From positions 1-64,000 of the forward strand of contig JADLHJ010000078.1 of NCBI GenBank assembly GCA_020848835.1: a stretch of DNA of 64,000 nt, read 5' to 3'. The position numbers and the translations under genes were made by a program. Each line of letters opens with the position of its first letter. The stretch's first letter is position 1. Shown piece after piece: positions 51,689-63,660 of this stretch. Source of the stretch: Candidatus Hydrogenedentota bacterium. GTDB taxonomy: Bacteria > Hydrogenedentota > Hydrogenedentia > Hydrogenedentales > SLHB01. Below the pieces are notes generated by a model, which was not told where the DNA came from, made no database searches, and saw only the letters and a list, made by a program, of their open reading frames with translations.

Positions 51689-52591
51689 ATGGAGGGTGCG
51701 GTGATGTGGATGCGGGCATCTATTGTTGCGATGGCATTGGTGGTTTGCGCGTATGCGGAGCCAATCACAAAGATCAAAATCGACGGCAAATTTGACGACT
51801 GGAATGGCGTACCCTCTCACTCCGATCCCGAAGGAGATCCCCACGACACCGACCACGATCAGCAGGGCGATACGCCCGCGCTCGTAAACCATCCCGACGT
51901 GGACATCCTTGAGTTCAAGTTAACTCACGACAAGAAAAACCTGTACGGCTATTGGAAATCCAACGGCCTCATCGGCCGCACGCAGAACACCAGCCAAGGC
52001 ACAGCCGGGCGCTTCTACGTCATCGTCACCATCGACGTGGACAACAAACTAAAAACCGGCTACTGGCTGCACGAAGGCGGCTACTACCCCACCTCCCGCG
52101 GCTACGACATGAACATGGAGGTCGAGTATTACAACGGCTCCTTCAACACCGGCCACTACCTCAACCACGGGGCGCGTAACGACACCGAATTGGATCAGTG
52201 CTTCCTCGATCAGGCGCAAGGCATCGTCAACATTCGCAAGGGCACCTACGATTACTACTCGCAATGGGTGTGGTGGGACGAGCCTCAGGGGCATATGGGC
52301 GAAATCGTACTTCCAAACGGTCACGACACCATCATCTGGGTCACCGACAAAGGGCCCATCTACCAGGGCATCATCACCATCGCGCTTTCGGAAGACCGCA
52401 GCGAAGCCGAAATGAAGGCCCCCTTCCGAGGCTTCATGAAGGACGATAAGGGCAAACCGATTATTAAACTCGGCAAGACGATCCGCGCATCCTTCTCCCT
52501 AGAAGCCAGCGGCGAAGTAGCCCCCGGCGGCCAATGGGCATCTGACACCGCGGAACCGATCACGTATACGCTGGATAAGCCGTCACGCTAA
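51689..52591 (+). CDS. Secreted protein, carbohydrate-binding (CBM9/DOMON-like) fold suspected
   Basis: Signal peptide; KIDGKFDDWNGVP N-terminal motif typical of CBM9-like domains. Confidence 0.62.
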   Translation: MEGAVMWMRASIVAMALVVCAYAEPITKIKIDGKFDDWNGVPSHSDPEGDPHDTDHDQQGDTPALVNHPDVDILEFKLTHDKKNLYGYWKSNGLIGRTQNTSQGTAGRFYVIVTIDVDNKLKTGYWLHEGGYYPTSRGYDMNMEVEYYNGSFNTGHYLNHGARNDTELDQCFLDQAQGIVNIRKGTYDYYSQWVWWDEPQGHMGEIVLPNGHDTIIWVTDKGPIYQGIITIALSEDRSEAEMKAPFRGFMKDDKGKPIIKLGKTIRASFSLEASGEVAPGGQWASDTAEPITYTLDKPSR

Positions 52592-54063
52592 TCGCTCCAG
52601 ATTGGATTTCGATTTCCGCAACTGCCGCCAACGAGTTGACTCTCGCCGAGCGCTTCGACGCGTACATCGTAACCGTCCGGAGAGTAGTCTATTACTTTGG
52701 AAACGTTCAATGTTCCCGTCCGCGACTTCCAATCCGATACATAGCTTGTCGAGGTAAATTCGAGCAGCGTCCGATCGATGTCACACCACGCAACGATATT
52801 TCTGGCAGACGCTGGCTCGTTCCATTTGGCCTTCGCCCCATCCACTGTAATGCCGTCGAGTTGTAGTTTAATTGTTACGGGCGCACTACCTGCCGTTCGG
52901 GGAGTCATGGTAACAATGACTGATCCACCGCTATTCACTCGTGCGTTGACTTCGGTGTTGGACGCAGAAGAAATGCTATACATGGTAAGATTCGGGCCTC
53001 CTTTTGGATCATGAGGACCCGGCAACGCCTGCAAAGTTTTCAATGCTTTGATCGGAACTTGATACAATTGGCCGTCTGACGCTATCGATAACTCGCGAGG
53101 CAGGGACATACAGCCGTTCCATCCCAAGCCTTCTTTAAATCCTCGCATCCATCCAACCAGGACCGTCGGCTCCGAGTCTCGGGGCAAATAAACATTCGAC
53201 GCATAAAACGAACCGTAGTCGAGCACCCCCTCTTTTTCAGGTGTGAATGAATAGCTATTCAATTCAAACGAACCTACAAAATATCTGAGTGGCTTATAAG
53301 GCGAGAAGATCAATACCCACTTTCCATCGAGTGGGAAAAAGTTGGGACATTCAAAAAACTCAACCGCAGACTTTGGCTGCCGATAGAGAATCCCGCGATA
53401 TATCCATTTATCAAGCGGCGGCGACTCCGCTTCAAAAATCGGAATGATCGCTTCATCCTTGGTATCCGCACCACAGACAAGAAACGTCCGTTCCTCTGCT
53501 TTGAAAATAAAGGGATCGCGCCAGTCTGGGCCAATCTCGAAGGGAACGGATTTCACATCCAGCATCGGGTTCTTCGGGTGCTTTTCCCATTTGATTAGAT
53601 CAGAATCGCCAATCGCTGCCCACTGTTCGTTCGGGCGCTTCTTCTCTGCGCTGGACACGCTGGTATAGAACAATATCGGCACGCCATCGCCATTGATAGC
53701 GGCGCAACCGGAAAACACATGCGCCTCGCCTTTGTCCTCAGACGGCCATAACGCAATCGGCAAATGTTCCCAATGCACGAGGTCCTTGCTCCGCGCGTGG
53801 CCCCAGTGCATATGACCCCACGCGTCGCCGTATGGATTGTGTTGATAAAACAGATGGTAGTAGCCATTGTAAAAAATCGTACCGTTCGGATCGTTCATCC
53901 AATTCGCAGGCGGACGGAAGTGATACACAGGCCGCGAAGGATCTTTGCTCGCCTTTTCCGTAGCCGCTTTCACGCTCTCTTCCGCGCGCTTCAGCGCCGC
54001 ATCGCGATACTCATCCGCACATGCCGCCACGCATAGCAACGCAACCGCGAATCGCATTATCAT
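52588..54063 (-). CDS. GH32 family glycosidase (levanase/fructosidase-like)
   Basis: HFRPPANWMNDPNGTIFYNGYYHLFYQHNPYGDAWGHMHWGHARSKDLVHW; WRDPFIF; FECPNFFPLDGKW. Confidence 0.95.
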   Translation of the reverse strand: MIMRFAVALLCVAACADEYRDAALKRAEESVKAATEKASKDPSRPVYHFRPPANWMNDPNGTIFYNGYYHLFYQHNPYGDAWGHMHWGHARSKDLVHWEHLPIALWPSEDKGEAHVFSGCAAINGDGVPILFYTSVSSAEKKRPNEQWAAIGDSDLIKWEKHPKNPMLDVKSVPFEIGPDWRDPFIFKAEERTFLVCGADTKDEAIIPIFEAESPPLDKWIYRGILYRQPKSAVEFFECPNFFPLDGKWVLIFSPYKPLRYFVGSFELNSYSFTPEKEGVLDYGSFYASNVYLPRDSEPTVLVGWMRGFKEGLGWNGCMSLPRELSIASDGQLYQVPIKALKTLQALPGPHDPKGGPNLTMYSISSASNTEVNARVNSGGSVIVTMTPRTAGSAPVTIKLQLDGITVDGAKAKWNEPASARNIVAWCDIDRTLLEFTSTSYVSDWKSRTGTLNVSKVIDYSPDGYDVRVEALGESQLVGGSCGNRNPIWSD

Positions 54064-54065
54064 GG

Positions 54066-55346
54066 CTACAGTTTCCCTTGAAGTTTGTACAGGTTCAGCA
54101 GCGCCTTGTTCATAATCTCTTCCCCCGCACCTAGCGGCACCCACGACACGGCCGCATCCGCGCCGTACCCGCCTTCAGACGCCGCTTCAATCGTCGGAAA
54201 GTACATGTGATGCCCGTTGCAATAGCCGTTGAAGATCACCTTCACGCCACGCGAACGTTCCTTCAATCGGTTCGAGTGATTGCAGAAGTATTCGCCCGAT
54301 ACACCCACCCAATACAACTCGCCATTGATAAGCAGGCAAGTGAGATGCGGCTTAATCTCATCACCCTTCAATTCATCCATGAAGGCGTTTGCCAATTCTG
54401 GAAAGAACGCGGCGCCCAACAACATCTTGCTCGCGGGACTCGTGATTTGTGAGCGGGTCTTGTATGTAAAGACGTCGTCCATACCCTTAATCGACGGGTT
54501 GTCCGGCACCTTCGTCGTAATCGTTTCATTTACCTTTAACACTTCGCGCCCGACCGCCGCGCCGAATAAATCGATTGTCTGCGTCTGGTCGGTACTCTGA
54601 ATCGACATATCCCCCGCCGCGCCTTGCACAAACTGGCACTGCGCGCCCAGCGCTTGCTCGACCGTGTTCATCATGTGCCCCGGCCATTCCGCTGAAAATC
54701 GCAAGTCCTCGGCAGGCAGACGCGTCGGGTGCGCCTGATAATTCACCATCACCGCGATAGGCTTCCCATCCAACGCATCCACGCGCACAACGCTGAGTTC
54801 CGTGTCGCGCGCCTTCGGTTCGGATTTCTGCTGCCGGTTGCGGTTCATATCAATGTTCGCCGAACCCCAACCAATCTTCGCGGGCTGCGTTTTCGCCGCC
54901 GCCTCTTTAATCACTGCAATGATGTGATCAGGCAGCGCCTTTGCATAATCCACGCAATCCTGAAACTTCCCCTGCCCCTTTTCCGGCGCGTCCAATAACT
55001 CAATAACCGGACCATGGTGCGTATGCGATCCTGAAATCATCACAAACTGCACACCCGCATCCTCAAGGACAGCCTTGCGAATCTTCTCCATCATCGGATC
55101 CGTAGGCCCGCGACCGATATCCATCGTCACAATCGCCGCCTTCGTATCGCCCGCTTCAAACACCACGCACTTCGCAAAGAGTGGATCGATTACCCCCTGC
55201 GACAACGCGTCATGCCGCGCCCCGTATCCCCACATCGGCATCGGCTTCTGCGGCGTAATATCCACCTTCGCCGTCCCCGCCTTGAACTCCTGCGCGGAGG
55301 CAGTAAAAGCTGTCAGAGTGATTAGAAAGGAAAGAAAAATTCGCAT
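54066..55346 (-). CDS. Neutral/alkaline non-lysosomal ceramidase-like protein
   Basis: AGTAKVDITPQKPMPMWGYGAR, ISGSHTHHGPVI; signal peptide. Confidence 0.85.
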   Translation of the reverse strand: MRIFLSFLITLTAFTASAQEFKAGTAKVDITPQKPMPMWGYGARHDALSQGVIDPLFAKCVVFEAGDTKAAIVTMDIGRGPTDPMMEKIRKAVLEDAGVQFVMISGSHTHHGPVIELLDAPEKGQGKFQDCVDYAKALPDHIIAVIKEAAAKTQPAKIGWGSANIDMNRNRQQKSEPKARDTELSVVRVDALDGKPIAVMVNYQAHPTRLPAEDLRFSAEWPGHMMNTVEQALGAQCQFVQGAAGDMSIQSTDQTQTIDLFGAAVGREVLKVNETITTKVPDNPSIKGMDDVFTYKTRSQITSPASKMLLGAAFFPELANAFMDELKGDEIKPHLTCLLINGELYWVGVSGEYFCNHSNRLKERSRGVKVIFNGYCNGHHMYFPTIEAASEGGYGADAAVSWVPLGAGEEIMNKALLNLYKLQGKL

Positions 55347-55425
55347 GGCCGCACGCTCCCATTGCCCAGTGAAGTGCATGAACTATAGCGATTAGACATG
55401 ATGCGATACCAGAATAGGAGAGGGT

Positions 55426-55512: not shown

Positions 55513-56805
55513 CTAGATCATATTCGAAACAACATGCAATGCATGCCGCGGGTTCTTAATCGCGCGCTTGGCCATCTCCGTCCAACTGTAATTACGAAAC
55601 GCCTGACGCGCGCTGAGCTGCAAGAACAATCGCTTTTGCAGTGCGGGAGACATGTTCTCATTACAATTGAATGTATCCGGATCGCCCGCAGTAAACTTAT
55701 CCCAGGTCACACCAGCTTTCATGATCTGATCTTTAAACTCATCAAACAGTGCCGTACCCGGATACGGCGTCAGATAATGGATCGACGCAAAATCAATCTC
55801 CGCCTGCTTGATGAATTGCTGCGTGAGCCGCACATCTTCTTCCGTCTCACCCGGCGTGCCGATAATAAAACACCCGCGTACACGCAGGCCCGCCTCATGA
55901 ATGTGGCGCGCCGCCTGCATATTCTGCTCGACCGTCGCATGCTTCACCATGCGGTCTAGCATCCGCTGGCTGCCACTCTCGAACCCAATCGTGATCTGCA
56001 CACACCCCGCCCGCTTCATCAAGCGCAACACATCAGGGCGAATCCGCCGCGCATGGATCTGGCACTCCCACTTCAAGTGGTGCAGGTCGTGCGCGATCAT
56101 CGCGTCGCAGATTTCCCGAAAGCGATCGATGTCCGTCGCCATCAATTCGTCGTAAAACGCGATACTCTCAATATTGTGCTTATCGACGAGATACTTGATC
56201 TCTTCTACGACGCGCTCGGCGCTATGAAACCGCAGTTGCGTCTCACGCTTCGAATTGATGCAGTAATTACAAACGAAGGGGCAACCGCGGCTCGTGATAA
56301 TACCCAGCGTGCGGTAGGAGAACCCCGCGATCTCCTCCCCCGCCGCTGCGTATAAATCAAGGTTCAACTGATCGCGTCGAGGATCGGGCAACGCATCGAG
56401 CTGCGTCGGAACCTCCGGCTCGATGATACCCTCGAGTTTTCCCCGCGTAATCGCCTGCGGAAAACTCCATTCCGCCTCGCCGCGAATCACACAATCGCCG
56501 TGCTGAATCGCTTCATCCGGCATCGCCGTAGGGTGCGCGCCGCCCATCACTACAGTCAGACCGCGCTCTTCTTTGATGCGATCCGCAATCTCATACGCCC
56601 GCAACGCGTACATCGTCATAAACGATATACCGGCGATGTCCGGCTTAAATTCGTCTATACCCTGCCATACATCGTCGCCTGCGATTTCATCGATGATCCG
56701 CGTCTGGTGACCATCCGCCTGCAAAGTCGCCGACAAATACGCAAGCCCGAGATTTTCCTTCTTCAAGGACCTTGGCACACTCGGGTTTATCAGCGCGATC
56801 TTCAT
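55513..56805 (-). CDS. B12-binding-domain radical SAM protein (rSAM1)
   Basis: N-terminal B12-binding-like fold; SRGCPFVCNYC CxxxCxxC; GTPGETEEDV. Confidence 0.94.
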   Translation of the reverse strand: MKIALINPSVPRSLKKENLGLAYLSATLQADGHQTRIIDEIAGDDVWQGIDEFKPDIAGISFMTMYALRAYEIADRIKEERGLTVVMGGAHPTAMPDEAIQHGDCVIRGEAEWSFPQAITRGKLEGIIEPEVPTQLDALPDPRRDQLNLDLYAAAGEEIAGFSYRTLGIITSRGCPFVCNYCINSKRETQLRFHSAERVVEEIKYLVDKHNIESIAFYDELMATDIDRFREICDAMIAHDLHHLKWECQIHARRIRPDVLRLMKRAGCVQITIGFESGSQRMLDRMVKHATVEQNMQAARHIHEAGLRVRGCFIIGTPGETEEDVRLTQQFIKQAEIDFASIHYLTPYPGTALFDEFKDQIMKAGVTWDKFTAGDPDTFNCNENMSPALQKRLFLQLSARQAFRNYSWTEMAKRAIKNPRHALHVVSNMI

Positions 56806-58211
56806 CAGTGCGATCCCACAACCTTTAGCAACCGCTGCGCGCTATAACGGCCAAGACGCATCATGCCGCCAAAACCTTCGCGGCGAAACGCATTTCCAAA
56901 GTGGTGAAACAAAGTGCGTGGACGCCGCGTCATCATGTGCCACTGCCAGCGACGCCATGCGAAGTCATACATTTCCGCAATGTCATCGGCGGAATAGCCC
57001 GGATACGACACGACCGCTTCGCCCGAGGGATCGAACTGCATCCAACTGTCTTTCGTCAGCCAGCCGTTGCGCTTGGCGTTGTCGTAAAACGCAGTGCCGG
57101 GGTAGGGCGTCGCGATTGCAAATTGCAGCGTGTGCGTATTCAAGCGTAGCGCGAAATCGATGCTGCGTAGCGCACTCTCGCGCGTTTCGCCTGGCAACCC
57201 CACGAGAAAGTTCGCGTGCGTTTGAATACCGAACTCACGACAATCGCGAACCGTGCGCGCGACATCCTCCGGCTTCTGATCTTTCGGAATCTGACGCAGC
57301 ACTTCGGGGTCACCGCTTTCCACGCCAAACTTAATCGCCCGGCACCCAGCACGCGACATCGCCTCGATCACATCGCGATCGATAACGGCGTTCCCCATGC
57401 AACTAAACGGTATGCCGAATTTGCGCGATGAATATTCTTCGCAAAGTGCAAGGATATGTTTGCGGTTGATCGTGATCGTGTCGTCATCAAAATAGATTTC
57501 GTCCGGCGCGTACTTATCAATGAGCAACTGTATTTCATCGCACACGCGCTTCGGATCGCGGCGGCGATAGTTGCGCTTTCCTTCAAACGGCGCAATTGTG
57601 CAGAAACCACATTCGAGCGGGCACCCGCGCGACGTAAGCACCGTAACCGAACGCCCCATGCAAAATGGGTCGTTGTACTTCTCCATTACCATCGCGTCCC
57701 ACGGCGGCGCGGGAATGTCGTCGAGATCACGAATCATCGGCGCGAATTCTGCGTTAGGGTGCTGCGCGGTAACGAGCCACGGCTGCGCTTCAAGCGAAAG
57801 CGCTGTGGAAATAACCTGATCGTATTCGCCGCGAATAACACCGGCAAATCCGGCTTCAATATGTTCCGCAGGCGTCGCGGTCGCGTGCGCGCCACCCGCA
57901 ATGGTCCGCACACCAATGCGCCGCATGGTTTCCAAATCGTGCTGCCAACTCGGCGCACTCGTCTCCATAAAGACAATGTCCGGTTGAAACGCACGCGCCT
58001 CGGCATCAAGCTCATCCAACGACATTCCAACAGCGATGCAATCGATCAGCCGAGCCTCATGCCCATCCGCCATTAACCGCGACGTCGCATACGCCAACTG
58101 AAACGGAAACGGATGATAGTCAATCCCCGTCTTCTTTAGCTTGCGCCCGTGCGGCCAGCGCGATCCTGCGCGGCAGAACGGCCCAGGCGGATTTAGAAGC
58201 AACACGCGCAT
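56805..58211 (-). CDS. B12-binding-domain radical SAM protein (rSAM2)
   Basis: MRVLLLNPPGPF; TSRGCPLECGFCT; YFDDDTI; VGLPGETRES. Confidence 0.94.
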   Translation of the reverse strand: MRVLLLNPPGPFCRAGSRWPHGRKLKKTGIDYHPFPFQLAYATSRLMADGHEARLIDCIAVGMSLDELDAEARAFQPDIVFMETSAPSWQHDLETMRRIGVRTIAGGAHATATPAEHIEAGFAGVIRGEYDQVISTALSLEAQPWLVTAQHPNAEFAPMIRDLDDIPAPPWDAMVMEKYNDPFCMGRSVTVLTSRGCPLECGFCTIAPFEGKRNYRRRDPKRVCDEIQLLIDKYAPDEIYFDDDTITINRKHILALCEEYSSRKFGIPFSCMGNAVIDRDVIEAMSRAGCRAIKFGVESGDPEVLRQIPKDQKPEDVARTVRDCREFGIQTHANFLVGLPGETRESALRSIDFALRLNTHTLQFAIATPYPGTAFYDNAKRNGWLTKDSWMQFDPSGEAVVSYPGYSADDIAEMYDFAWRRWQWHMMTRRPRTLFHHFGNAFRREGFGGMMRLGRYSAQRLLKVVGSH

Positions 58212-58212
58212 G

Positions 58213-59346
58213 CTAGATGAACTCGTACTGCATGTCGTTGTCGATCATCGCTTCGTCGAGAATCTGGTTGTACTTCACAAAACGGCAATCGAGATTGTTG
58301 CACTCGTGCGGCTCGATGCCGTCAATCGCTTCCCAATGCTTCTGGCTGTACCACAACGCATCGAGCGGGGTTGTGAAACAATTGCCAATGGAATGTTTCT
58401 CCTTGCGATGGCGATAGTAACAACAAAGGTACACTTCGCCCATCGGATCAACGGTCAGTTGCAGCGGCGTGAGCCAGCACTTCGTCGTCATATTAATCTT
58501 GTCGGTGCCGCCAACGACCGGCATCTGCGGATATTTCTGCCGCAATTCGCGCATCTGAACGTTCACGGCCTGGCCTTGCTCCTCATTCAACTCAGAAGCT
58601 ACCAGACGCGCCGCCTTGAACTGTACGGAATCCACGCCAAGCCGAATCGCCACGCGTACGCACTCTTCCACTTCGTGATAGTTGTTCGCGTCGAGCACGA
58701 CCTTGATGCTGATGCGCACACCAGTCCCACGCTCTCGGCGCAGCGCGAGCATCCCCATGATGTTTTCACACACAGCTTCAAACCGCGCTTCCGGGGTCTT
58801 CGGCCGTTTCACACGATTCGCAGTCTCGGGCGTCGCGCCGTCAAATCCAACGCGCACATAACTCGCGCAATCCACCAACGCAGACGCTAGTTCGCCTTTA
58901 AGTTTAGTGCCATTCGTGAGCAGGCCAATGCTCGTGCCCTGCGATTTCATCTTGCGCACAAGCTCCGCGAGATGGGGATGCAGCGTCGGCTCGCCCCCGC
59001 CGCAAAACTCCACACCCCGCACGCCCAAAGCGTGCAGGTCGTCGCAGAGCTTGAACAACTTTTCCTTCGACATCACGCGGTCAAGGTCTTTGTTGGTATT
59101 CTCCGCGTTGTACTCGCACCACAAGCAATCCTGATTGCACACATACGTCGGATACACGATCGCCGTGCGCGGCGCGGGCATCTTTTTTTCTAGAATCATG
59201 CGCGCCTCGGTCCAGTGCGTCATGATCCGCGTCTGCAACGTATCGAATATCCCGGCCTCTTGGCCTGGCGTCGTGCCGAATCGTGGCTGCGCGATAGGCG
59301 GGAGTTGCGCCTCATCCTGAGGGGCGATTCCTGATTTCGGCGTCAT
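58213..59346 (-). CDS. Radical SAM protein with SPASM-like C-terminal cysteine cluster
   Basis: YVCNQDCLWCEYN; VEFCGGGEPTLHP; C-terminal CWLTPLQLTVDPMGEVYLCCYYR...ECNNLDCRF; start MTPKSG at 59346. Confidence 0.93.
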   Translation of the reverse strand: MTPKSGIAPQDEAQLPPIAQPRFGTTPGQEAGIFDTLQTRIMTHWTEARMILEKKMPAPRTAIVYPTYVCNQDCLWCEYNAENTNKDLDRVMSKEKLFKLCDDLHALGVRGVEFCGGGEPTLHPHLAELVRKMKSQGTSIGLLTNGTKLKGELASALVDCASYVRVGFDGATPETANRVKRPKTPEARFEAVCENIMGMLALRRERGTGVRISIKVVLDANNYHEVEECVRVAIRLGVDSVQFKAARLVASELNEEQGQAVNVQMRELRQKYPQMPVVGGTDKINMTTKCWLTPLQLTVDPMGEVYLCCYYRHRKEKHSIGNCFTTPLDALWYSQKHWEAIDGIEPHECNNLDCRFVKYNQILDEAMIDNDMQYEFI

Positions 59347-59963
59347 GGTGCGCTCCCTTGGTTTGCGGCCGGTTGTTCCGATGTGGATGGTTTGCCCGTA
59401 AAATTTTTCTTCACCGAATCGCGGATGTTCTTCTTCACTGCGTCGCGCGTGGACGGCGACGCCTGCGGCGCGGGAATAATCATCCACAACGCCGGATCTG
59501 AATTGACGCCGCGCGCAGCCCGCATGCGTTTGATCACCAACCGCGCGAGACTCCGTCGCGAATCTTTCGTCAACCGGAACTTCTTGTCTTCGGTCACGTA
59601 GATCTGCACAAACGCCTTGTCTTTCAGCGTAAACGCCTTGCTTGTGAACACAGCGCCCTGCTCGGTCGAGGCTTGCAGCACATGCTTACCCTTCGGCAGT
59701 TTGATTTGATACTGCCCATCGTAGCTTTTCTCGTCCATCACAAAGTTGCGATCGAGAATTTTCTCGCCGTCCAACGTCACTTGCACATCCGCCGGGCCCG
59801 TCGCGCTTGGGTCTTCATTGAAGACTTTCATGAACAAGGTCCCGCGTTCCGGCAAGCGAATGTTCGCGCCGCCGCCCGAACCGCCACCGTCCGACTCGCA
59901 ATTGCTCGCGAGAAGGGCGGCCAAAATACATACCGCGCGCAGGACCCAGCGCACACTACACAC
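59343..59963 (-). CDS. Uncharacterised secreted/lipoprotein-like protein, paralogue of next gene
   Basis: Signal-like N-terminus, Gly/Ser linker, domain VQVTLDGEKILDRNF...QIKLPKGKHVLQAS...AFTLKD; ATGA-type overlap with 58213..59346. Confidence 0.82.
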   Translation of the reverse strand: MCSVRWVLRAVCILAALLASNCESDGGGSGGGANIRLPERGTLFMKVFNEDPSATGPADVQVTLDGEKILDRNFVMDEKSYDGQYQIKLPKGKHVLQASTEQGAVFTSKAFTLKDKAFVQIYVTEDKKFRLTKDSRRSLARLVIKRMRAARGVNSDPALWMIIPAPQASPSTRDAVKKNIRDSVKKNFTGKPSTSEQPAANQGSAP

Positions 59964-60396
59964 CTCCCTGGCCCGGCATTACGTAAATAGGCTGGTTCGA
60001 AACCGAAAAGCTGAATTCCGAAGGCAGGCCCTTTTGCTTCGGCGAGAAATACAGCGCGCCGAACAGCGTGTCTTTGATCTCAAATGTACGCGCTATCTCC
60101 GCGTTGCCCTTGATCGTCTTGGCGCGAATCTCGTGTGTCCCCGGCGGCAGGTTAAACCGGAAGCGATCGTCGTGTTGCCCGCGCTGACTGCTGAAGCTGC
60201 GGTTCATTGCCAGATCGCCATCAATCCATATTTTGACATCGAGCGGCACGCCATCGAAGCCCATCTGATCCACATACACGCGTAGATGGAAATTTCCATT
60301 TGGATCCTCGAACGGCGCCGCCTCGTGCGCGGGCATGTGCATACACCCCGCGACTGCAACCGCCACCACACAAAACGCAAAAAACTGTTTCATCAT
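59956..60396 (-). CDS. Small uncharacterised lipoprotein
   Basis: Lipobox VAGC; VKIWIDGDLAMNRSF...RFNLPPGTHEIRAK...TFEIKD; overlaps neighbours. Confidence 0.84.
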   Translation of the reverse strand: MMKQFFAFCVVAVAVAGCMHMPAHEAAPFEDPNGNFHLRVYVDQMGFDGVPLDVKIWIDGDLAMNRSFSSQRGQHDDRFRFNLPPGTHEIRAKTIKGNAEIARTFEIKDTLFGALYFSPKQKGLPSEFSFSVSNQPIYVMPGQGGV

Positions 60397-61856
60397 TAGT
60401 TGTTCCCCACAAATCCCACATATGTTTTTTCTTTATTGCCAAAATAACTCACAAAACTTTTCACCCCGTGCAACTTCGCACGCAGATCGGCCATATTCTG
60501 GATATTGCGCAACATTCGCCACATTTGCCCGGGCCGCAAATAAAAACTGCGCAACCCTTCATCAATGAAACTATTGATCTGTTCTGCGCTCAAGCCCGGC
60601 AATTGCTGCGTGGAACGCTGCTCGAAATTGTCGTCCACCCAATCGCGCCACTTCGTTTGCTGGAGATACCCGTTCTCCTGCGCCCATTTGTAATAGGACG
60701 TCCCCGGGTACGCCACGACCGCAGTAAACTGCGCCGTGTCGATCGGCAATTGCTGCGACAGATCGAGGGTCTTCCGCGCTGTTTCGGCGGTCTCGCCCGG
60801 CCCGCCAAACATGAAGCAACCGTGTACGCGGATGCCTGCGTTGTGCGCGTTATGCGCGAAGCGGTGCATCTGCGCGACCGTTGCGCCCTTCTTCACGTTG
60901 TTCAGTACTTGCTGATCGCCGAACTCGAATCCCACGCACAACCAGCGGCACCCCGACCGTTTCATCAGTTTTAATACTTCGAGATCGTTTACATCCACGC
61001 GCGCGTTCGCGCTCCACGAAATGTTCAGGTTGCGACGAATCATCGTCTCACACAGTTCTACAAGACGGTCCTGTGAACTGCGCATCGTCAGCGTATCGTC
61101 TTCGAACATGATCTCTTGCAGGTTCGGGAATAGTTTCTTGTCGTACTCGATCTCATCGCAGACGTTATCGGCGCTGCGCGTACGATAGCTATGCCCGTTC
61201 ATCACCTGCGGCAACTGGCAGAACGTACATTTCGCGCGACACCCACGTCCGCTCAGCAGCGTCACGAATGGAAATAGCTTTCCGAAATCGTGGTAGTCGT
61301 TGATGTCCACGTGCTTCCACGCGGGAAACGCGAGTTCGTCGAGGTTCTCAATATAGGGACGCGATGGATTACACACATATTGCGAACCATCCATCCACGC
61401 CAACCCCGCGCATTCTTTAATCGCGACACCATTCGCAAGGTCGCGAATCGTGTAGTCGTACTCCGCAATCGCGACGGCATCCAGGGCACCGTTCGCATTG
61501 CGCAAGGTATCTTCAGGTTCAGCGGTCACATGCGGACCGATCATTACATGTAAGCCGCCCAGCGCGTCTTTGCACAAACGCGCCGACTCGATGTCCGCGT
61601 CGATCGACGGCGTCGTCGCCTGATATACGACCATGTCCGGCGCGAAAGTTTTCAGCTTCTGAATCGCAATTTCCGTCGGCATGTTTTTGGCCTGCGCATC
61701 GAGAAAGTAAATCTCGTGCCCAGCCGCCTCAACCACGCCCGCACAGGTGCAGAAATAATCCGGATGCCGCTGCACGCGCCCACGCGAACGCGCAAACCAC
61801 CGCGCGGACTTCGTGAAGTCTTTGCCAAACATCGGATTTAAAAAAGCAACGCGCAT
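60396..61856 (-). CDS. B12-binding-domain radical SAM protein (rSAM3)
   Basis: MRVAFLNPMFGKDF; SGRGCRAKCTFCQ; FEDDTLTM; FGGPGETAE; start trimmed to MRVAFLN. Confidence 0.94.
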   Translation of the reverse strand: MRVAFLNPMFGKDFTKSARWFARSRGRVQRHPDYFCTCAGVVEAAGHEIYFLDAQAKNMPTEIAIQKLKTFAPDMVVYQATTPSIDADIESARLCKDALGGLHVMIGPHVTAEPEDTLRNANGALDAVAIAEYDYTIRDLANGVAIKECAGLAWMDGSQYVCNPSRPYIENLDELAFPAWKHVDINDYHDFGKLFPFVTLLSGRGCRAKCTFCQLPQVMNGHSYRTRSADNVCDEIEYDKKLFPNLQEIMFEDDTLTMRSSQDRLVELCETMIRRNLNISWSANARVDVNDLEVLKLMKRSGCRWLCVGFEFGDQQVLNNVKKGATVAQMHRFAHNAHNAGIRVHGCFMFGGPGETAETARKTLDLSQQLPIDTAQFTAVVAYPGTSYYKWAQENGYLQQTKWRDWVDDNFEQRSTQQLPGLSAEQINSFIDEGLRSFYLRPGQMWRMLRNIQNMADLRAKLHGVKSFVSYFGNKEKTYVGFVGNN

Positions 61857-62350
61857 CAGTCTTTCCACAAATTACCGAGATATAGGGCCTTCTTCGGGAA
61901 TCCCGCGCGAATCGCGGGAAGCAATTCGTGACGTATATCGGGATAAAACTTCAATGATTCCAATTCGTTCACCGGCATGTAACGCACTTCCACCACGCGC
62001 GGATCGACGCCGCAGGCAATCTCGCCGGTCACGACGTGCGCCGTGAAACACAAATTGATCGTATGCCTCGTGTTGTCCGGTGGTATGGTGTCGTTTACGA
62101 TCACGAGATCCCCAACCTCAATTTCGAGGCATGCCTCCTCGCGCAATTCGCGCTGCAACGCTTCTGCGAGCGGCTCGCCATATTCGATCCCGCCCCCCGG
62201 CAACAGCCAATAAGACTTCCCATTCTTGATATGACGCACCAAAAGCAGTTCATCACCGCGCATGATTATCGCCGCCACACGGATACGCGGGCTCTGTTGC
62301 GCCGGTGAAACTTCGGCGCCGTCCATCAGTTTAGGTTTACGCGCGAGCAT
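61856..62350 (-). CDS. NUDIX hydrolase
   Basis: GGGIEYGEPLAEALQRELREEACLEIEV Nudix box. Confidence 0.96.
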   Translation of the reverse strand: MLARKPKLMDGAEVSPAQQSPRIRVAAIIMRGDELLLVRHIKNGKSYWLLPGGGIEYGEPLAEALQRELREEACLEIEVGDLVIVNDTIPPDNTRHTINLCFTAHVVTGEIACGVDPRVVEVRYMPVNELESLKFYPDIRHELLPAIRAGFPKKALYLGNLWKD

Positions 62351-63660
62351 CAGGCTACGCCGTCCACAGTATCGACAACATACGCCTTTAAAGACCCCAA
62401 CTGCGGCGCAGACAGTTCTGCATCCAGCACAATGTCATTCCCCTCATACGCGCGATCGAACACGCGTCCCCATTCATACACACGCGAAGCCAAGTTCGCT
62501 TCCTGTTGCGGAATACGCAGCGTCACCCGCGTACGCGCGTTGGCGAAATAAGCTTCAATTCGTTTCAAGAGTTCAGCCAAACCCTCGCGCGTCACAGCGG
62601 ATACCGCACACGACTCGCCAGGCTGGTTTAATTTTTCGCGCACAGAATCGTCGTCCGCGGCGTCAATCTTGTTGTACACGCGAATCAACGGCTTACTCGT
62701 CGCGCCGATTTCTTCCAACACGCCCATCACGGCGCTGACCTGCTCGTCCACGCCCTCATGCGACACATCGGAAACAAGCAGGATCAAATCCGCTTCATTC
62801 ACTTCTTCCAACGTCGCGCGAAACGCGGCCACAAGCCCGTGCGGCAATTTGCGAATAAATCCCACCGTGTCGGTTATCACTGCCTGTCCGCCACCCGGCA
62901 AATCGCAGCGCCGGCTCGTCGGATCGAGCGTCGCGAAAAGCTTGTCTTCTACGAACACACCTGCCTGTGTCATCGCGTTCAACAATGACGATTTCCCAGC
63001 GTTGGTGTAGCCGACCAGTGCGACGGTGCCAACCGCGCCTTCCGTTCTGCGCTTGCGCTGCGTCTGGCGGTGCCGCCGAATCTCGTCGAGATCGGAACGC
63101 AGTCGATCGATCCGCTTACGGATTACGCGGCGATCAACTTCCAGCTTCTGTTCACCGGGACCACGCGTACCAATACCGCCGCCCAGCCGCGCCATCTCGA
63201 CACCGCGGCCGGTAAGACGCGGGAGAATGTATTGAAGCTGCGCGAGTTCGACTTGATGCTTACCTTCGTTTGTACGTGCTCGCTGCGCGAAAATATCGAG
63301 AATCAGTTGCGTGCGATCCAGCACCTTCACGCCAAGCGCCTTCTGCAGCTTAGATCCCTGCGTCGGCGAAAGTTCCGAATCGAAGAGTACGAGGATCGCC
63401 TCAAGCTCGCCAACCGCTCTCGCGATCTGCTCGACCTTACCTGCGCCGATGAGCGTCGCCGGACAAGGCACCGCGCGACGTTGCACCATCGTGCAGGCCA
63501 CTTCGGCGCCAGCAGTCCACGCCAAACGGCGCATCTCCGCGAGCGATTCTTCTACCTCGTCGTGGTCCTCGCCGGGCACGACAAGGCGCACCAATATCGC
63601 CGTCTCCGAAATCGGCGGACGGTCAATGGTAATCAGTTTGCTATTTTCAGCCACGATCAT
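62350..63660 (-). CDS. hflX: GTPase HflX
   Basis: GTRGPGEQKLEVDRR, ALVGYTNAGKSSLLNAM, TVGFIRKLPHGLVAAFRATLEE. Confidence 0.97.
   Translation of the reverse strand: MIVAENSKLITIDRPPISETAILVRLVVPGEDHDEVEESLAEMRRLAWTAGAEVACTMVQRRAVPCPATLIGAGKVEQIARAVGELEAILVLFDSELSPTQGSKLQKALGVKVLDRTQLILDIFAQRARTNEGKHQVELAQLQYILPRLTGRGVEMARLGGGIGTRGPGEQKLEVDRRVIRKRIDRLRSDLDEIRRHRQTQRKRRTEGAVGTVALVGYTNAGKSSLLNAMTQAGVFVEDKLFATLDPTSRRCDLPGGGQAVITDTVGFIRKLPHGLVAAFRATLEEVNEADLILLVSDVSHEGVDEQVSAVMGVLEEIGATSKPLIRVYNKIDAADDDSVREKLNQPGESCAVSAVTREGLAELLKRIEAYFANARTRVTLRIPQQEANLASRVYEWGRVFDRAYEGNDIVLDAELSAPQLGSLKAYVVDTVDGVA

Follow-up and report, generated by a model that had tools for sequence, protein, structure and literature searches.

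What do four radical S-adenosylmethionine (SAM) enzymes make when three of them also carry a B12-binding domain and all are encoded in one operon of a Candidatus Hydrogenedentota bacterium? The operon occupies positions 55513 to 63660 on the minus strand of the window, the stretch of 64,000 nucleotides analyzed here, which is carried on a 106,737-base contig (JADLHJ010000078.1) of a 6.1-Mb genome assembly (GCA_020848835.1). It consists of eight intact open reading frames (ORFs) in the order hflX, NUDIX, rSAM3, lipA, lipB, SPASM, rSAM2, and rSAM1. We observe that it is composed of two conserved modules, an old NUDIX-rSAM3 pair and a SPASM-rSAM2-rSAM1 trio, that rSAM3 falls into the clade of the hopanoid enzyme HpnJ, and that glycosyltransferase genes are enriched beside relatives of these enzymes. 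HpnJ, AprD4, and BlsE/DesII emerge as the closest characterized or solved relatives, and together with the glycosyltransferase enrichment they lead us to a carbohydrate reading: the operon may well direct radical tailoring of a sugar or sugar-derived (cyclitol) head group on a non-hopanoid envelope glycan or glycolipid, a proposal that we regard as about evenly poised between right and wrong.

Operon architecture and conserved modules

Each of rSAM1 (55513 to 56805), rSAM2 (56805 to 58211), and rSAM3 (60396 to 61856, extendable to GTG 61868) matches the Pfam B12-binding and Radical_SAM domains (PF02310 and PF04055) above the curated cut-offs. With the B12-binding domain at the N terminus and an invariant CxxxCxxC motif (C175/179/182 in rSAM1, C197/201/204 in rSAM2, and C210/C214/C217 in rSAM3, the last invariant in 24/24), all three are predicted to be B12-dependent radical SAM enzymes. 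The fourth radical SAM protein (58213 to 59346) combines Radical_SAM and SPASM domains (PF04055 and PF13186, the latter at 33.2 bits with a cut-off of 21.5). The HflX GTPase, a housekeeping protein encoded by the operon's first gene (62350 to 63660; TIGR03156, 461 bits, cut-off 217), and the NUDIX hydrolase (61856 to 62350; PF00293) were verified as well. This gene content, which an earlier note on the window had read from the letters alone, is borne out by Pfam, where the two small proteins have no match.

With the conserved ATG 61856 taken as the start of rSAM3 and ATG 59346 as that of SPASM, the intergenic spacings are, in order, -1, -1, -1, -8, -4, +1, and -1 bp. The overlap is 1 bp between hflX and NUDIX (TGATG at 62350) and also between NUDIX and rSAM3, the latter starting at ATG 61856 (MRVAFLNPMF...) and not at the listed GTG 61868. 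Further downstream, rSAM3 and lipA overlap by 1 bp (60396), lipA and lipB by 8 bp (59956 to 59963), lipB and SPASM by 4 bp (59343 to 59346), and rSAM2 and rSAM1 by 1 bp (56805), with a 1-bp gap between SPASM and rSAM2. ORF coordinates and junctions thus agree with the eight-gene, minus-strand operon with mostly 1- to 8-bp overlaps that had been described, and the arrangement is not due to chance, since the gene order recurs at 58 to 93% identity in other Hydrogenedentota genomes.

The comparison set comprises 68 Hydrogenedentota genomes, labeled from G000 (the host) onward and divided into families f1, f2, etc. SPASM orthologues (59 to 91% identity) are found in 12 of them, and a clear gap separates these from the remaining matches, which reach about 34% or less over comparable lengths. 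rSAM1 is present in the same 12 genomes, and rSAM2 orthologues (63 to 90%) occur in 13, namely, these 12 and G009. The three genes stay together in 12/12 SPASM-bearing genomes, which represent two families. rSAM3 is distributed more widely, being present in 27/68 genomes of families f1, f2, f4, f7, f9, and f11 at 64 to 92% identity. A NUDIX gene lies immediately upstream in 17 of the 25 rSAM3 loci that have upstream sequence (five families), and hflX is found upstream in f1 loci only. Where enough sequence is available downstream of rSAM3, 10 loci continue into SPASM-rSAM2-rSAM1 (one of them split across two contigs) and 13 do not; G011 and G013 encode the trio without rSAM3. In G016, a convergent coiled-coil gene that elsewhere flanks rSAM1 lies opposite rSAM3 at a distance of about 105 bp, and the trio is therefore cleanly missing from this genome. 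The trees are unrooted and compatible with both transfer of the module between f1 and f4 and inheritance.

Two further observations concern the surroundings of rSAM3. In nine genomes from several families, a BNR-repeat (sialidase-like) gene in opposite orientation is located upstream of hflX/NUDIX-rSAM3 (L036:4100-5479 and L099:10720-11826) and is part of rSAM3's older neighborhood. In G016, an extra radical SAM gene with a CPNACRHC motif is inserted between NUDIX and rSAM3 (L130:4315-5403).

The separate occurrence of the pair at 13 loci and of the trio in two genomes would be expected if the modules and hflX/NUDIX were neighbors without a common pathway, the operon being a transcriptional convenience in which each radical SAM enzyme has its own role. 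However, the modules are adjacent in 10 genomes of two families, with genes that mostly overlap or nearly do so, and the trio is never broken up in the genomes that encode SPASM; we consider this explanation improbable.

Scanning a named collection with the SPASM protein returned only three matches, all of them Candidatus Hydrogenedentota metagenome-assembled genomes. Two other phyla, represented by 4 and 291 genomes, gave no SPASM match at E<=1e-30 in searches run without a positive control, and among 40 genomes of one additional phylum, a search for rSAM2 yielded relatives at 30 to 36% identity only. Within the partial sampling searched, the system appears confined to Hydrogenedentota.

rSAM3 and the hopanoid question

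HpnJ makes the cyclitol ether of the hopanoid head group, acting after HpnI and HpnK as the final enzyme (PMC12583986), and is among the few nonmethylating B12-dependent radical SAM enzymes with a known role (PMC13142503). rSAM3 matches the HpnJ family model TIGR03471 from end to end at 359 bits, with a cut-off of 577.6; rSAM2 and rSAM1 score 226 and 122 bits, respectively. In a tree of 61 B12-dependent radical SAM proteins, whose long branches make the placement of single outside proteins less sure, rSAM3 groups with a Lawsonia plasmid protein and the HpnJ proteins of hpn clusters with support of 100/98. This grouping and the shared B12-binding and radical SAM domains make rSAM3 a member of a broad HpnJ-like clade, at 34 to 35% identity to hpn-cluster HpnJ.

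The full-length match and the clade would both suit hopanoid cyclitol-ether biosynthesis with rSAM3 acting as HpnJ, as would the presence of squalene-hopene cyclase in 4/68 genomes of the phylum, three of them operon carriers. However, rSAM3 reaches the HpnJ cut-off in 0/68 genomes, and squalene-hopene cyclase has no match above the cut-off in the host genome or in its 98%-complete sister G001 and is lacking in most rSAM3-bearing genomes. HpnI was not found at E<=1e-40 in the 68 genomes, in a search without a positive control, as the control genomes gave no match either. Unlike HpnJ, rSAM3 has neither HpnI nor HpnK nearby; its partners are NUDIX and, in some genomes, three additional radical SAM enzymes. 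The HpnJ scores below the cut-off and the absence of the cyclase from the host lead us to reject the hopanoid pathway, and rSAM3 as a hopanoid HpnJ is an idea already largely refuted and very unlikely.

The genomes with squalene-hopene cyclase are all close relatives (G005:C136, G021:C251, G024:C803, and G008:C10; L195 and L196). Each cyclase gene adjoins a radical SAM gene that is weakly similar to the SPASM query and is possibly hpnH.

Relatives of rSAM2, rSAM1, and the SPASM enzyme

In the same tree, rSAM2 groups with a protein of Eleftheria (100/97) in a sister group of HpnJ/rSAM3 (joined at 99/93), and rSAM1 stands apart on a separate branch. The best NCBIfam model for rSAM1 is BchE, at 136 bits with a cut-off of 481, and no family is clearly best. 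By sequence, the closest solved relative of rSAM1, rSAM2, and rSAM3 alike is AprD4 (PDB 6fd2), a radical SAM diol-dehydratase of an aminoglycoside sugar, yet the three score only 76 to 113 bits to NF033070, whose cut-off is 500. For the SPASM enzyme, the closest solved relative by sequence is BlsE, and a structure search places DesII (8hzv) and BlsE (7vob), enzymes of sugar nucleosides or nucleotides, on top, with 17 to 20% of residues identical in the structural alignment. Genes for desosamine or blasticidin are absent from the operon's surroundings. AprD4, DesII, and BlsE all act on sugars. The cysteines C69-x3-C73-x2-C76 and C289-x12-G-x4-C307, C308, C348, and C353 are invariant in 12/12 SPASM orthologues; a full SPASM domain has seven cysteines, and the protein in the window has fewer.

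The BchE, ladderane, PhpK, and B12 lower-ligand (BzaD) families were rejected as assignments, with all scores far under their cut-offs. No characterized pathway fits these radical SAM enzymes, as the earlier note had anticipated.

Genomic context of the relatives

A glycosyltransferase is encoded in 9/19 loci of rSAM2/HpnJ-type relatives versus 1/20 control loci (Fisher p=0.003, an approximate value because the control loci share the phyla and some of the genomes of the relatives but are not matched genome by genome). At the level of neighboring proteins, we count 12 members of glycosyltransferase family 2 (GT2) and 4 of family 1 (GT1) among 91, versus no more than one of each in the 91 control proteins. 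The relatives from another phylum are 30 to 36% identical to rSAM2. The earlier statement that there is no obvious glycosyltransferase is thus accurate inside the operon and does not extend to the related loci.

Several of these loci are informative individually. On plasmid 1 of Lawsonia intracellularis (NC_008012.1), LI_RS06575 groups with rSAM3 (93/84; 34% identity over 97%) and lies near glycosyltransferase, SIS, HAD-IIIA, and GHMP kinase genes, in a glycan-type cluster that, unlike the operon, has no NUDIX or rSAM2 partners. This cluster (L091) also holds a second radical SAM gene beside the HpnJ-like one, as well as five methyltransferase genes. On a plasmid of Eleftheria terrae, N7L95_RS24805 and N7L95_RS24800 follow the order of rSAM2-rSAM1, and RS24805 groups with rSAM2 (33% identity), whereas RS24800 does not group with rSAM1, and the pair is flanked by a PIG-L deacetylase, three glycosyltransferases (WecB-type and family 4), and an epimerase. 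In G009, a true rSAM2 orthologue (63%) is situated beside a methyltransferase, an LPG_synthase_TM protein, a GT2, and another B12-dependent radical SAM enzyme, a locus resembling hpnI-hpnJ-hpnK-LPG_synthase of Mycetohabitans. We found no paper linking Hydrogenedentota or Lawsonia with radical SAM enzymes.

The lysylphosphatidylglycerol-synthase-type membrane protein next to rSAM2 in G009 would also be in keeping with an operon that acts on the hydrocarbon portion of membrane lipids, methylating acyl or isoprenoid chains at carbon, cross-linking them, or forming rings in them. B12-dependent radical SAM enzymes have been proposed for ladderane and archaeal tetraether-lipid rings (PMC13142503), and the ladderane-associated model TIGR04072 matches all three of ours at 109 to 121 bits. 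These scores, however, fall far short of the cut-off (360), and those of rSAM3 and rSAM2 also fall far short of their HpnJ scores; the operon has no conserved association with acyl carrier, desaturase, or fatty-acid genes; and a Citrobacter cluster of five radical SAM genes with desaturase and PAP2 genes occupies its own branch of the tree. Hydrocarbon modification is therefore an unlikely function.

That cluster lies on a mobilizable plasmid of Citrobacter portucalensis (NZ_CP134684.1; L114, 49425-66621), where five mutually related radical SAM genes are accompanied by a fatty-acid desaturase, a PAP2 phosphatase, a GH3-family protein, and an acetyltransferase. It is possibly an uncharacterized lipid-type radical SAM cluster in Enterobacteriaceae.

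Lipoproteins lipA and lipB

Between rSAM3 and SPASM, the window encodes two small lipoproteins, lipA (59956 to 60396; lipobox VAGC) and lipB (59343 to 59963), which are paralogues (27% identity, E=4e-9). Both have a signal peptide with a lipobox, whose cysteine is invariant in the alignment of 10/10 homologues. The identification as lipoproteins in the earlier note is thereby upheld, with the addition that the lipobox of lipB in the window, ASNC (59898 to 59963), is irregular in having N at position -1, where G or S occurs in every other homologue. The AlphaFold model of lipA (mean predicted local distance difference test score [pLDDT], 74.5) contains an eight-strand all-beta domain. A fold search against PDB gave nothing significant, with transthyretin-like proteins and HGSNAT all at E>0.001.

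The pairing of radical SAM enzymes with exported lipoproteins had been stressed in the earlier note. Genes of the lipA/lipB type are present between rSAM3 and SPASM in only 6/12 genomes with the trio: two copies each in G000, G001, G005, and G021 and a single copy in G008 and G019. They are missing in G011 and G013 and also in G004, G015, G027, and G052, four genomes with rSAM3 directly next to SPASM. Five of the lipoprotein-bearing genomes form one clade in the rSAM1 and rSAM2 trees (G021 is not included), and G024 encodes a lipoprotein relative remote from any radical SAM gene. Being absent from half of the genomes with the trio, the lipoproteins do not define the pathway and are instead an accessory of a single lineage. 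Gene-cluster conservation, which the note had suggested as a check, holds for the NUDIX-rSAM3 pair and the trio and fails for the lipoproteins, the very outcome it had named as speaking against its proposal.

The same distribution bears on whether the SPASM and B12-dependent enzymes modify a ribosomally synthesized, posttranslationally modified peptide (RiPP) or the lipoproteins themselves. SPASM-type radical SAM enzymes frequently act on peptides, the peptide-acting SuiB follows close behind BlsE/DesII in the structure search, and the position of the two lipoproteins invites the idea. On the other hand, the four genomes in which rSAM3 directly abuts SPASM do without them, the G024 relative is far from any such enzyme, and the overlapping genes leave no space for a conserved precursor. 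We recognized no RiPP partner gene in the operon and no conserved precursor gene; between rSAM3 and SPASM there are only the lipoproteins, themselves missing in half of the genomes. A peptide substrate is thus rather unlikely.

A putative pathway for an envelope glycan or glycolipid

An envelope-associated pathway, as the earlier note had proposed, is plausible since glycan and glycolipid loci are where relatives of these enzymes are found; its original footing in the lipoproteins gives way to this one. For the carbohydrate reading that we favor, the four enzymes would cleave SAM to a 5'-deoxyadenosyl radical, which would abstract hydrogen from the carbohydrate part. rSAM3 may rearrange or contract a ring, as HpnJ does in cyclitol ether formation, rSAM2 and rSAM1 could add B12-assisted C-methylation, ring, or deoxygenation steps, and the SPASM enzyme might catalyze a BlsE/DesII-like oxidation or elimination. 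The order of these steps is likewise putative, as is any role of the NUDIX hydrolase, rSAM3's ancient partner. The lipoproteins would be an addition to the periplasm of one lineage, where they may serve to bind the product or to display it.

Several points weigh against a carbohydrate substrate. The operon itself contains no glycosyltransferase or sugar-nucleotide gene, and the relatives that supply the context are only 30 to 36% identical, the rSAM2 orthologue of G009 excepted. rSAM1 has no specific affiliation. BlsE/DesII are poorly separated from SuiB (E of 8e-14 versus 3e-13), and the C-terminal region of the SPASM enzyme is modeled at low confidence. In addition, radical SAM families often switch substrate. 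A more specific version, in which the four enzymes form a radical assembly line for a carbocyclic or otherwise carbon-rearranged head group carried by a non-hopanoid envelope glycolipid, i.e., an undescribed lipid class and an HpnJ-type enzyme at work outside hopanoids, is a speculative possibility that we would not expect to hold.

Immediately downstream of the operon in this genome, we observe a neutral-ceramidase-like gene (54066 to 55379) and a GH32-type glycosidase gene (52588 to 54144). In related genomes, a convergent coiled-coil protein occupies the spot of these two genes (52588 to 55379 in the window).

B12-dependent radical SAM enzymes form a large branch of their superfamily for which few products are known. 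An ancient and widespread HpnJ-type enzyme in a mostly hopanoid-free phylum, together with a co-inherited three-enzyme module, makes a target for the discovery of a new envelope molecule, and HpnJ-like genes should not be taken as hopanoid markers.

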